Part shown: piece by piece, positions 10,074-14,858 of the stretch
How the letters are laid out: every line of letters starts with the position of its first letter
Position numbering within the stretch: the stretch's first letter is position 1
Assembly (NCBI RefSeq): GCF_017431965.1
Contig: NZ_JAFRKB010000027.1
Location: 1-64,000, forward strand
Source of the DNA: Methanobrevibacter sp.
GTDB lineage: Archaea; Methanobacteriota; Methanobacteria; Methanobacteriales; Methanobacteriaceae
Length of the DNA: 64,000 bases
Direction: 5' to 3'
Notes under the pieces: model-generated
Told to the model about the DNA's origin: nothing
The model's database searches: none
Seen by the model: only the letters and a program-made list of their open reading frames with translations
Program-made: the position numbers and the translations under genes

Positions 10074-10832
10074 ATGTCAAATATCATTAAAATTTTCTTC
10101 AGTCCATCGCAGACCACAAAAAAAGTTGTAGAACAAGTTGCAAGCAATTTCAAAAAAGAAGGCGAAACATACGATTTATTGAATTTTGACTCCGAAAAAG
10201 AGTTTTCACAGGATGATGTTGCAATTGTTGGAATGCCTATTTTTGCAGGAAGACTTCCAAAAAGCGGACGTGACAGATTAGCCAAATTAAAAGGAAACAA
10301 TACAAAAGCAATAGCTATTGCAAACTATGGAAACGCACAGGTAAAAGACGCATTGCTTGAATTGGTAAACATTTTAAAAGAAAATAATTTTGATGTGATT
10401 GCAGCTGCAACAACAGTTAGCCACCACTCAATATTTGACGGCGTTGCAGTCGGAAGGCCCGACAGTGAAGATATCAAAAAAATCAATGAATTTGCCGAAA
10501 AGTGTCAGGAAAAAATAGAATCCGGAGAAAGCTTAACTTCAGAAATACCCGGAAATGAAGAATACACACCATACAAGCAGTTGCCTTTTATAATAAATTG
10601 TGATGAAGCAGTATGCTCATTCTGTTATGATTGTGTTTCAATCTGTCCTGAGAAGGCCATACCTGATGACGATCCAATAAACACTGATTTAGAGTCATGC
10701 AGCAGATGTACCGCATGCATCAGCATATGCTCTGAAGATGCTCGTAAATTTACAGGAGAGGCATTTGAAAGCAAAAAACCAGCCTTTGAACAAGCAAATA
10801 GCAAAAGAAAAGAACCGGAGTTTTATCTATAA
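10074..10832 (+). CDS. EFR1-type ferrodoxin (flavodoxin plus 2[4Fe-4S])
   Basis: A 252-residue redox protein of the EFR1 family. An N-terminal flavodoxin-like domain (about 1-150) has the phosphate loop FSPSQTTKKV. It is fused to a C-terminal ferredoxin with two complete clusters, CSFCYDCVSICP (about 183-194) and CSRCTACISICS (about 210-221). It probably shuttles electrons in the cytoplasm; its partners are unknown. A GGTGA ribosome site precedes the ATG. Its 3' end overlaps the convergent HEAT-repeat gene by 6 bp. Confidence 0.9.
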   Translation: MSNIIKIFFSPSQTTKKVVEQVASNFKKEGETYDLLNFDSEKEFSQDDVAIVGMPIFAGRLPKSGRDRLAKLKGNNTKAIAIANYGNAQVKDALLELVNILKENNFDVIAAATTVSHHSIFDGVAVGRPDSEDIKKINEFAEKCQEKIESGESLTSEIPGNEEYTPYKQLPFIINCDEAVCSFCYDCVSICPEKAIPDDDPINTDLESCSRCTACISICSEDARKFTGEAFESKKPAFEQANSKRKEPEFYL

Positions 10833-12329
10833 ACTCATTCTCTTTTTTGCCACATTTCTTACATATTCACTGTCATCATTAATAGAAATGTCTTTTAAAA
10901 CCTTTTTACTGACAATATGCTTAACGGCAGCTTCACGAACCCTCCATTGGGGATCCTCTTTAGCCACTTTCGTTAAGAATTTCTGGTCTTTGACCCTGGA
11001 AACTGCCCTTACGGAAATTTTTTCAGAAATGCCCTGTTCATAAATTTTAATCAGACATTTTTCAATATTGATTTTATTTAATGCCTTTAATGAAAATTCT
11101 TCATCCCTATTGGCTAAAACAATTTTAATTAACGTTTCTAAATCATCAATATCATCCAAAGTGCTTTTCCTAATATTTTCCAACTGAGCCTCATTTAGAA
11201 TCTTAATAAATGCCTTTTCATCAGTTATATGCTTCATTGCTTCACTGGCCGTATCCTCATGAGTCGAATTAATTACAATGTCCAAATAGTCACTTTCATC
11301 AACTAAATTAGGATTTTTGATAGCATGATTTCTGACAAACTGGTCTTCATCATTTAATGCAATGTTAACTAAATCTTTAGGATTTTTAAGGTTATTTACT
11401 GCAATTTGGCGAACAAATCTATCATCATCGGAATTAATAATCTTCAGCAATGTTTCTTCTTCCGTAATCTTTTTAACAGCCTCGCTTCTAACAATCTTAT
11501 CGTCATCATTCAATGCAATGCGAGTAAGCAAATCCTCATCATCAATTTTAGAAACCAAATCTAAGCGAACATCAGACTTGTCGGAATTTAAAACAATATC
11601 CTTTAATATGTCTACGTCATCTATTTTTTCAAAAATAATTGACCTGATTTTTGCATTTTCTTCGCTTTTGGCAATCATGGCCAGTTTTTCGCTATCTGCA
11701 ATTTTATTGATGGCGGCTATTTTAACCCCTTCATCCTTTTGACTGACTGCTACTTCCTGAAGAACATCCTCATCACTGAAAGCCTCTTTATTTATTGCTG
11801 CCTTTTTAACAAGATTATCATTTGCCTTGAAAACTAAATCCTGCAATACTTCCGGAGATTCTATTCTTTCAACAGCCTCATTTCTATATCTTTTATCCTC
11901 AGCATCGATTGCAATCCATTCAAGAGTTTCCTCATCTGCAATCTTATTGAAAATTTCATCCACATTGGGATTTTTCTTTGTATTTATTACAATTTCAGCA
12001 ATGGACTTATTGTTTTCGCCTAGCCTCTCATATGCAAAACTCCTAACATCAAAAAACGGTGAATTTTCAGCTGCATCCCAAAGCAAATTTTCATCTTTAA
12101 CCTTATTTATAGCTATTAAACGGATAGCCCTATCCTTTACAGTTTTAGACAAGTCCAAAGCCACATACTGATTTGTGATATTATTTGCTGCAACCGCCCT
12201 TTTATTTCTATCCTTATCAGTTGTAGCAATCTTTTTTAATAACAGCTGATCTTCTTCTATTTCCATATCTTTTGGAATGGATTTTGCCTCTTCTTTTTCT
12301 TTTTTCTTGAATCTGTCAAAAAGTCCCAT
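10827..12329 (-). CDS. HEAT-like repeat protein
   Basis: A 500-residue soluble, acidic protein made almost entirely of degenerate alpha-helical repeats of roughly 22-30 residues. The recurring core resembles D(D/E)xxVRxxAVxxIxDEE. Clear examples are DDKIVRSEAVKKI and DDRFVRQIAVNNL in the middle of the chain. A basic-acidic head (MGLFDRFKKKEKEEAK) precedes them. Such arrays are binding scaffolds. It begins 1 bp after an RNase H-fold nuclease gene ends, so the two are almost certainly coexpressed. This suggests a nuclease-scaffold pair, but no function is established. Confidence 0.8.
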   Translation of the reverse strand: MGLFDRFKKKEKEEAKSIPKDMEIEEDQLLLKKIATTDKDRNKRAVAANNITNQYVALDLSKTVKDRAIRLIAINKVKDENLLWDAAENSPFFDVRSFAYERLGENNKSIAEIVINTKKNPNVDEIFNKIADEETLEWIAIDAEDKRYRNEAVERIESPEVLQDLVFKANDNLVKKAAINKEAFSDEDVLQEVAVSQKDEGVKIAAINKIADSEKLAMIAKSEENAKIRSIIFEKIDDVDILKDIVLNSDKSDVRLDLVSKIDDEDLLTRIALNDDDKIVRSEAVKKITEEETLLKIINSDDDRFVRQIAVNNLKNPKDLVNIALNDEDQFVRNHAIKNPNLVDESDYLDIVINSTHEDTASEAMKHITDEKAFIKILNEAQLENIRKSTLDDIDDLETLIKIVLANRDEEFSLKALNKINIEKCLIKIYEQGISEKISVRAVSRVKDQKFLTKVAKEDPQWRVREAAVKHIVSKKVLKDISINDDSEYVRNVAKKRMSL

Positions 12330-12330
12330 T

Positions 12331-13374
12331 TTAATTTACATCCATATACATTTTCTCTAAAAAGGCTGCAAGCGAAACAATATCCTGCCTATTATGCTCG
12401 ATTATAGGTACAATAGGTCCAATATTATTTTCAGACAAGTAAGTGTCATAATATCCCGGAATATACTGGCCCGGAACGTCATCGTGTCTTTCAATGCCAA
12501 AGAATTCTCTTTCAATTGTTTGAAGTTTGTAATTAGGAAGCTCATCCTTCCACAAATTTTTTGCAAAATGCATTAAGTCCAAGTGCGGCAAATCTAAATT
12601 GGCCTCTATTCTATTATATGTACATCTATTCTTAATAAATGGTACATCAAAACTTTTGCCATTAAAAGTAACATGAACTGAATCTTCATCCAAATGTGAC
12701 AAATATGCGTCCAAAAGGGCATCCTCTTCTGTGTAATTCCTTAAAAAATATTGTGAGCATATTATATCCTTGCCCTTTATCTCTGCAACACCTATCAATA
12801 TTACTGGAACATTGGACAGTCCTTTGGTTTCAATATCCATAAATTTAAAGTTTTCACAATCAGTAAGGCTTATGCATTTCAATAGATTGTCCCTGCATCC
12901 TTTTGAGTATTTATTCCGGTCAAGCAAATTCATTATTTCACAAAAAGGCATTTCATCAATTTCATCTAAAAATTTGGATGCAATATCCCCGTAGGCATCA
13001 TGGCCTTTAAGGGATTCGATTGTGTCATAACCATTGTTTTTAAGGTTTTCCTCTTTTTTTATACCAATTTTCGGAAGCAACTTCAAATTATGGTTTATCT
13101 GATTTTTAAAATCGTTGTCCTCAATTTTAAAATCTATTTTTTCTGTTGTGGTGATTTTTAATGTATCTCCAAAATTTGTTGAAATTATTTCGGAGTTTTT
13201 AATATCCGTCAATTTTTTTCCTTCAAAATCCAACAGCAATCTTCTCTTCAAATCCTCAAAATATAATGGAGATTTCTCCCGAGCCCTTTGTTTTGCTTTT
13301 TCGGAAGGATTTCTAGAAGAAATTGAGTTTGCAAGTATTCTTTGATAATAATTTTCTTGATTTTCATTATACAT
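12331..13374 (-). CDS. RNase H-fold exonuclease (YprB-like)
   Basis: A 347-residue protein with a helix-hairpin-helix-like segment (about 105-150) followed by a DEDD-type exonuclease domain (about 175-345). The acidic motifs are in order: FMDIETKGLS (D,E), VTFNGKSFDVPF (D) and EHNRQDIVSLA (D). They match the RNase_H_2/YprB family of predicted ribonuclease H-like exonucleases. The first 60 residues look like an unrelated basic head. It leads the two-gene unit with the HEAT-like repeat gene. The substrate is not known. Confidence 0.85.
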   Translation of the reverse strand: MYNENQENYYQRILANSISSRNPSEKAKQRAREKSPLYFEDLKRRLLLDFEGKKLTDIKNSEIISTNFGDTLKITTTEKIDFKIEDNDFKNQINHNLKLLPKIGIKKEENLKNNGYDTIESLKGHDAYGDIASKFLDEIDEMPFCEIMNLLDRNKYSKGCRDNLLKCISLTDCENFKFMDIETKGLSNVPVILIGVAEIKGKDIICSQYFLRNYTEEDALLDAYLSHLDEDSVHVTFNGKSFDVPFIKNRCTYNRIEANLDLPHLDLMHFAKNLWKDELPNYKLQTIEREFFGIERHDDVPGQYIPGYYDTYLSENNIGPIVPIIEHNRQDIVSLAAFLEKMYMDVN

Positions 13375-13455
13375 ATTTCAAGTTTATTTTAGTAAATTCC
13401 AGGATATATAATTTTTTAGTAAAGTATACTTGAATTTTAATAAAATATAAATAAG

Positions 13456-13463
13456 TTTATATA
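13456..13463 (+). promoter_or_regulatory. TATA box of the candidate RNA at 13488
   Basis: TTTATATA in a purine-rich context, about 25 bp upstream of the G that opens the first hairpin. This is the spacing expected between an archaeal TATA box and its start site. Confidence 0.6.
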
Positions 13464-13487
13464 CTTGAACAAATATAATAAATAATT

Positions 13488-13618
13488 GGCTACAACGTAG
13501 CCGGAGAGATAGATTAAACAGCCAAATTTTAAAATTCATTTCTCTAAAAGCTTGTAAAAACAAGTTGTTAGGTAGATAATTGCATAATTATTTACCTAAC
13601 CATCCCAAAACTTTTTTT
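13488..13618 (+). ncRNA. Candidate structured non-coding RNA, about 131 nt
   Basis: No open frame explains this locally GC-richer stretch. It folds into four stems on paper. Stem 1 is GGCTAC/GTAGCC (13488-13502, three-base loop). Stem 2 is AGAGA (13505-13509) with TCTCT (13541-13545). Stem 3 is AGCTTGT/ACAAGTT (13549-13566). Stem 4 is a 15 bp stem with one G-U pair and loop GCAT (13567-13600). A run of seven T residues follows at 13612-13618. A TATA box stands at the right distance upstream. It may be an independent RNA or a leader regulating the membrane protein gene at 13715. No known family is recognised. Confidence 0.6.
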
Positions 13619-13714
13619 AAATTCAACTAAAAATTACCGCCTTAAATCAAGTTAGAAAAGTATTTAATATTTCTAAAACAAAAATAATATTAGTAATTTT
13701 TTAAGGTTTAAAAT

Positions 13715-14098
13715 ATGAATATGAAATTGGCCATTGTTTATGGAGTGTTGACTTGGGTTTTAATATATCTTCTTACAGAAGTTTTTTACCCCCTTTTTAT
13801 AAATTTCATTCCAAATTTCAACATAGCCATTCCATTAATCATTATTATTGTAACAGGATTCTTTGGAATACTTTATATAAGAAATATTGAAGAAAATGAG
13901 GTTGTTGAAGGAATTCTGATTGGAATGGTTTTTATTATAATTGACATAATGCTTGATTACATAGTCTTTATTTTGCCACAACATACAAATATAATTGTTG
14001 AGAATTATTTTATTCATCTTATTTCAATGATTATAATAACTTTACTTATAACAACATTTTTAGGATACTTGGCTCAAATGAAAATTGATTTAAAATAA
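13715..14098 (+). CDS. Small multi-pass membrane protein
   Basis: A 127-residue protein with four predicted membrane helices (about 4-26, 32-50, 62-85 and 95-120) and short loops. No motif or family is recognised. It lies about 95 bp after the candidate RNA terminator and 16 bp before the phosphopantoate ligase gene, so it could share a transcript with the CoA genes. The extreme AT richness of its codons reflects its Ile/Phe/Leu content. Confidence 0.7.
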   Translation: MNMKLAIVYGVLTWVLIYLLTEVFYPLFINFIPNFNIAIPLIIIIVTGFFGILYIRNIEENEVVEGILIGMVFIIIDIMLDYIVFILPQHTNIIVENYFIHLISMIIITLLITTFLGYLAQMKIDLK

Positions 14099-14114: not shown

Positions 14115-14858
14115 ATGATACCTAAATCACATCCCCGTTACGAATCATTACTATTAAGAGATAAAATTGTCAAAGCCGCTCAAAAAGGATACTTGGCTGA
14201 TTCAGGAATGATTGCTCATGGCAGAGGAGAAGCTTTTGACTATCTGATTGGTGAAAAAACAACTTACCCTGCAAAAAGGGCAATGTATGTTGCTGTTGCC
14301 GCATTGCTCCTATCCAATAATCCAGTCATTTCTGTTAATGGAAATGCTACAGCCCTTGCAATTGATGAAATAATCGATTTAGCAAAAGCAATCAATGCCA
14401 AAATCGAAATCAACTTGTTTTATAGGACTGATGAGAGAGTAAGATTAATAACAAAACTATACAAGGACCATGGATATAAAGACATACTCGGATCATTGGA
14501 TGATGACATGGAATATATTGATGACATCAAAAATAATAGGGCTTCAGCAAGCAAAAACGGAATTTATTCAGCCGATACCGTGCTGGTCCCACTCGAAGAC
14601 GGAGACAGAGCAGAAATCCTAAAAAAATCCGGCAAAAAAATTATTACAATTGATTTAAATCCACTTTCAAGAACATCAAAAATGTCCGATATATCCATTA
14701 TGGACAATATTGTAAGAGCGATTCCATTTATGACAAAAATCGCTGAAGACTTAAAGACTCAGGACAAGAAATTCTTAATCGATTTAGTCAATGAATTTGA
14801 CAATGAAGAAAACCTAAAAGAATCATTACAACAGATTAAAATTAAAGAGGGAGAATAA
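14115..14858 (+). CDS. 4-phosphopantoate--beta-alanine ligase
   Basis: This archaeal phosphopantothenate synthetase joins 4-phosphopantoate and beta-alanine with ATP in coenzyme A synthesis, replacing the bacterial PanC route. Landmarks are IPKSHPRYESL at the start, DSGMIAHGRGEAFDYL (about 30-45) and SVNGNATALA (about 75-84). NLFYRTDERV and the acidic site DLNPLSRTS follow. Length (247 aa) fits. The ATG follows AAGGAGAT. The stop overlaps the ATG of the next kinase-like gene, so both are translated from one message. Confidence 0.93.
   Translation: MIPKSHPRYESLLLRDKIVKAAQKGYLADSGMIAHGRGEAFDYLIGEKTTYPAKRAMYVAVAALLLSNNPVISVNGNATALAIDEIIDLAKAINAKIEINLFYRTDERVRLITKLYKDHGYKDILGSLDDDMEYIDDIKNNRASASKNGIYSADTVLVPLEDGDRAEILKKSGKKIITIDLNPLSRTSKMSDISIMDNIVRAIPFMTKIAEDLKTQDKKFLIDLVNEFDNEENLKESLQQIKIKEGE

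Follow-up and report, generated by a model that had tools for sequence, protein, structure and literature searches.

A structured locus conserved across Methanobrevibacter very probably encodes an independent small noncoding RNA

We analysed a 64,000-nt stretch of DNA from Methanobrevibacter sp. (the window) and focused on the spacer between two divergent genes. On the minus strand lies a gene for an RNase H-like/DEDD exonuclease (12331-13374; PF13482, E 1.6e-39), which adjoins a gene for a 500-aa HEAT-repeat protein (10827-12329, minus strand); most loci extending to this point keep the pair. On the plus strand, a gene for a 127-aa membrane protein (13715-14098), which is without a Pfam or NCBIfam match and is given here as context outside the RNA, is followed by a gene for 4-phosphopantoate--beta-alanine ligase (14115-14858, plus strand; PF02006, and NF041123 above its cut-off). 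The third downstream gene codes for an AAA/adenylate-kinase-like protein. A preliminary description of this DNA had referred to the downstream genes as CoA genes, and we found that assignment to be secure for the ligase but not for the others, the match to CoaE being weak.

Within the spacer we found the parts of a gene for a small RNA of about 131 nt (13488-13618, plus strand), delimited by a predicted start and the end of a T run and backed by its fold z-score, 56 homologues and covariation. The TATA box of the RNA gene, TTTATATA (13456-13463, plus strand), begins 32 bp before G13488, and the first stem opens at this G. At the other end is a run of seven T residues (13612-13618, plus strand), a probable archaeal terminator, and the membrane protein gene starts 96 bp past it. 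All three elements lie where the preliminary description had placed them. In nearly all of the 56 loci the TATA box precedes the first paired base by about 30-33 bp (for L059 and L061 the value was counted from TTGACT, and for L037 the script used a wrong anchor), and a spacing of 30-33 bp is what an archaeal start at the first hairpin, P1, predicts. Because the spacing is fixed in nearly all loci, we conclude that the opening of a stem at the expected start is a conserved property. The 3' end is kept as well, with a run of five or more T beginning 8-20 nt past the last hairpin, P4, in 52 of the 56 loci. Upstream, the palindrome AAGTATACTT (13422-13431) lies between the two divergent promoters, those of the exonuclease gene and the RNA, and is found upstream of the RNA in most loci, intact or nearly so. 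The site AAGTATACTTGA has no second copy in its own genome, and the window contains no other even when one mismatch is tolerated. With no more than two sites per genome, this palindromic promoter element was rejected as a regulon marker.

To describe the fold, we computed the structure of 13488-13618 and obtained an energy of -36.2 kcal/mol, compared with a mean of -16.5 +/- 3.5 kcal/mol for shuffled sequences (z -5.69). None of the 200 shuffles folded as low. Across the 56 homologues the z-score ranged from -3.8 to -11.1, with a median of -6.6. The fold consists of four hairpins, all on the plus strand, and the stem counts given earlier, including that of the 15-bp stem, were correct. P1 (13488-13502, GGCUAC-AAC-GUAGCC) has 6 bp and a 3-nt loop; it is much longer in L059 and L061. 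The P2 domain (13503-13545) has an outer stem of 8 bp formed by GGAGAGAU and AUUUCUCU and encloses a large loop. P3 (13550-13565, GCUUGU-AAAA-ACAAGU) has 7 bp and a 4-nt loop. Although found in most homologues, P3 is missing from L046, L053, L054 and L056 in the alignment and is thus dispensable. P4 (13567-13600) pairs 15 bp around the 4-nt loop GCAU. In L043 (genome G097) the 3' half of the RNA is partly duplicated in tandem, about 60-185 nt past the core; a second AATTCGTTTCTCT is followed there by a P3-like and a P4-like hairpin, all of them after the first set.

An alignment of relatives, which the preliminary description had proposed as a way to find compensating base changes, did reveal such changes. 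Over the whole structure, 93.4% of cells paired among the 56 sequences and 15 of the 34 pairs had two-sided changes, whereas in slid controls 35-53% of cells paired and at most nine pairs had two-sided changes. The two-sided changes were found in P1 (98.2% of cells paired; two of its six pairs) and in P4, where they affect all 11 outer pairs. We conclude that in P1 and P4 the shape counts more than the sequence. In the P2 stem variation was one-sided, and no two-sided change was detected. The assignment of P2 and P3 is based on single-sequence folds and conservation. RNAalifold alone returned only P1 and P4, and we regard the P2 stem as likely, though covariation does not prove it.

Primary sequence conservation was distributed differently along the RNA. 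Mean pairwise identity was 90% in the P2 loop, 62% in P4 and 36% just downstream, and the maximum of the RNA falls in P2. A loop segment of P2, AAACAGCCAA (13516-13525, plus strand), is nearly invariant in the 56 sequences (99% identity), and a second segment, AAUUCAUUUCUCU (13533-13545, plus strand), which is the 3' arm of P2, is almost invariant (99%) though its pairing partner varies. The A/T spacer that joins the two segments is variable in length. Judged by this conservation, AAACAGCCAA is likely the site of function.

Homologues with the same order of parts were identified in 56 of 67 Methanobrevibacter genomes by a DNA search and a covariance model, so the stems, whose absence from close relatives the preliminary description would have counted against the RNA, are for the most part kept in the genus. 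The DNA search, run over the family, gave no convincing match outside the genus. The model (R1) was built from the 56 sequences and run on the 67 genomes of the genus and on 83 others in the order. Among these 83 we detected no confident homologue; three weak matches (E 0.06-0.08) were rejected as they are without the core motif, as were second matches in G072 and G076. When 84,980 species were searched, with one genome per species, the exact core motif gave 39 matches, all in Methanobrevibacter records and with M. thaueri and M. millerae among them, and the motif was not found in viral contigs. The RNA is single copy in the genomes that carry it, including that of the window, and the exonuclease gene adjoins it wherever the locus extends far enough to reveal the neighbour. 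In a tree of the exonuclease, the distribution of the RNA is consistent with a single gain followed by a single loss: G101, G064 and G059 branch outside the RNA-bearing genomes, and G083 represents a nested loss. The exonuclease and membrane protein genes are still adjacent in G101 and G083, with the RNA absent. Other genes occupy the place in G064, the sequence reads N in G059, the locus stops at a contig edge in G044, and six genomes of the genus gave no exonuclease match; the absence of the RNA is therefore certain in few genomes.

We compared the RNA with known families. As the label "unassigned" in the preliminary description implied, it belongs to no Rfam family: at the gathering cut-off, Rfam 15 gave no match in either the window or the 12 homologous loci searched, and other matches were at chance level (E 4 and above). 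Archaeal C/D and H/ACA guide RNAs are, like this RNA, small, stable, intergenic and structured. A C/D box guide RNA was rejected, since box C (TGATGA, UGAUGA in the RNA) occurs in none of the 56 sequences and the CTGA of box D (CUGA) occurs in 12 of 56 and is not conserved. An H/ACA guide RNA was rejected because the alignment has no ACA box 3' of P2, the would-be pocket hairpin; UCUCUAAAA stands there instead. The locus does have a promoter and a 3' end of its own, no conserved open frame, and a fold with compensating changes, which are the marks of intergenic small RNAs of archaea. Going by these sequence features, it is a new RNA family of this known kind.

Small RNAs of other methanogens offer a comparison. 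sRNA154 of Methanosarcina mazei is conserved in its genus, and its loops are proposed to pair with mRNAs, one of them through an anti-RBS sequence, and to mask the ribosome-binding site (Prasse 2017, as reviewed in PMC5867862). Compared by description, both it and the Methanobrevibacter RNA are intergenic methanogen RNAs that are conserved in a single genus and have a stable hairpin fold. sRNA154, however, is tied to nitrogen starvation, and nothing about the Methanobrevibacter RNA points to nitrogen. Another methanogen sRNA, sRNA162 of M. mazei, is described in PMC3510493 as reaching cis- and trans-encoded mRNAs with separate domains, whereas pairing with adjacent genes is unsupported here. 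Our literature search found no published description of this RNA and no paper on a conserved small RNA in Methanobrevibacter. A survey of human microbiomes predicted 3,161 structured RNAs, including five archaeal candidates that, like this RNA, are conserved intergenic structures without an Rfam match (PMC8040213). M. smithii, a gut species, may be the source of some of these. Because the main text of that survey leaves the five unnamed, an earlier machine prediction of this RNA is possible.

We searched for target RNAs using the conserved parts of P2. Exact complements of AAACAGCCAA revealed no conserved target in seven genomes (that of the window being searched with TTGGYTGTTT). Each of six relatives has 6-14 perfect complements, a number that includes the RNA gene; those that recur outside the RNA gene are few, lie in coding-aligned sequence and not before start codons, and were rejected. 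A search with TTGGCTGTTT, which covers long conserved sites with seeds of about 9 nt or more, found no orthologous site near a start codon. Likewise, the search with the P2 3' arm (AGAGAAATGAAT) found no site shared at translation starts, and the complement of this arm occurs one to four times per genome, including once in the RNA gene. A zinc-ribbon gene located behind argD in the genome of the window has a 5' UTR (L002:1498-1525) that is complementary to the P2 loop at 21 of 22 nt just before the ATG. This mRNA was rejected as a target, because the site is absent from relatives and the match is thus attributed to chance. The P2 loop paired with neighbouring 5' UTRs at mean energies of -7.7 and -8.1 kcal/mol, close to the -6.4 and -6.6 obtained for shuffled UTRs, and the 5' UTR of the exonuclease gene showed no excess of pairing with the P2 loop; these UTRs too were rejected as targets. 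In the genomes examined for pairing with ribosomal RNA, the rRNA genes read N or gave no match.

The position of the RNA upstream of an operon could also be explained by a cis-acting leader, and the preliminary description had left the choice between a riboswitch-like leader and a stand-alone small RNA. Acting on the membrane protein/CoA operon, a riboswitch or attenuator would stop transcription at the T run or let it read through into 13715. The hairpin followed by a T run resembles an attenuator, the gene order is constant in every locus showing it, and the distance from the T run to the gene is usually about 70-110 nt. However, the operon has a separate promoter-like site, TTAGAAAAGTATTTAATATTT (13652-13672, plus strand), which is conserved at a distance of about 55-65 nt upstream of the membrane protein gene and was present in all RNA-bearing genomes in which the start of that gene was located. 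In addition, about 0.5 kb is inserted between the RNA and the operon in G041 (L047), and an insertion of about 1.6 kb with two ORFs lies there in G087 (L057). (The two ORFs, of 280 and 73 aa, have C-terminal ends that are alike, and the longer one looks like a transposase/nuclease-type protein.) The downstream gene is retained without the RNA in G083 and G101, and PPS is visible in G083. There is no conserved alternative pairing either, as UUGGCU:AGCCAA is broken in the seven genomes with GAC in P1. With its own TATA box and T run set apart from the promoter-like site of the operon, and with these insertions, the RNA is unlikely to be a leader, and we consider that reading improbable. The stand-alone RNA, which the fixed promoter spacing, the covariation, the T run and the genus-wide conservation favour, was the alternative that held. 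We also considered that the divergent genes may be separated by an element acting as DNA, for instance a boundary or a site bound by a regulator, with the RNA-like fold as a by-product. The invariable position between two promoters and the adjoining palindrome would suit such a site, but compensatory changes in P1 and P4, invariant unpaired bases, a fixed TATA spacing and a T run where the 3' end is expected all fit a transcript, making this explanation very improbable. Finally, a 59-codon frame with a TTG start overlaps the locus on the minus strand and could suggest a short conserved peptide, for which we see practically no chance: the plus strand has no ATG, and both strands lose the frame among relatives. 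Since the gaps in the aligned core are not multiples of three, we conclude that the core is non-coding, and the alignment refutes the peptide for this locus family. We are therefore highly confident that the locus is an independent noncoding RNA gene of Methanobrevibacter; sequence comparison shows the gene and its parts, and shows that it is conserved and independent of the operon.

What this RNA does can be proposed with less certainty. Transcription would proceed from the TATA box, start near 13488 and end in the T run past P4, yielding about 131 nt. The conservation pattern suggests that P1 and P4 protect the two ends as caps and that P2 is the working part, displaying AAACAGCCAA and AAUUCAUUUCUCU across the variable spacer. 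By analogy with the loops of sRNA154, the P2 loop may pair in trans with short stretches of mRNA, and our guess as to pairing mode and targets follows that model. We favour such a trans-acting regulatory RNA as the best explanation, with middling confidence; against it stand the lack of a conserved target in the searches above, a P2 3' arm conserved beyond what pairing requires, and G083, which does without the RNA. Alternatively, a protein could read the two-part P2 motif of AAACAGCCAA and AAUUCAUUUCUCU, so that the RNA would act as an RNP scaffold or decoy with no target RNA. In favour of this reading, the two invariant segments stand on either side of a spacer whose length varies, the 3' arm is more conserved than pairing with its varying 5' partner requires, and no long complementary target is conserved, but no partner protein is known and the motifs of guide RNAs are absent. 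We regard this as a tentative possibility. As the target searches gave no shared site, a protein-binding RNA follows close behind the pairing RNA, our first choice. A narrower idea, a lineage-specific RNP RNA whose P2 motif is recognised by a protein dedicated to it, seems to us unlikely; if true, the genus would possess its own structured RNA machine and not an ordinary antisense regulator.

In the human gut and the rumen, species of Methanobrevibacter are major producers of methane. The RNA described here is a candidate for a new Rfam family. Found in most Methanobrevibacter species and nearly invariant in its core, it offers a defined point from which to study post-transcriptional control in these archaea.
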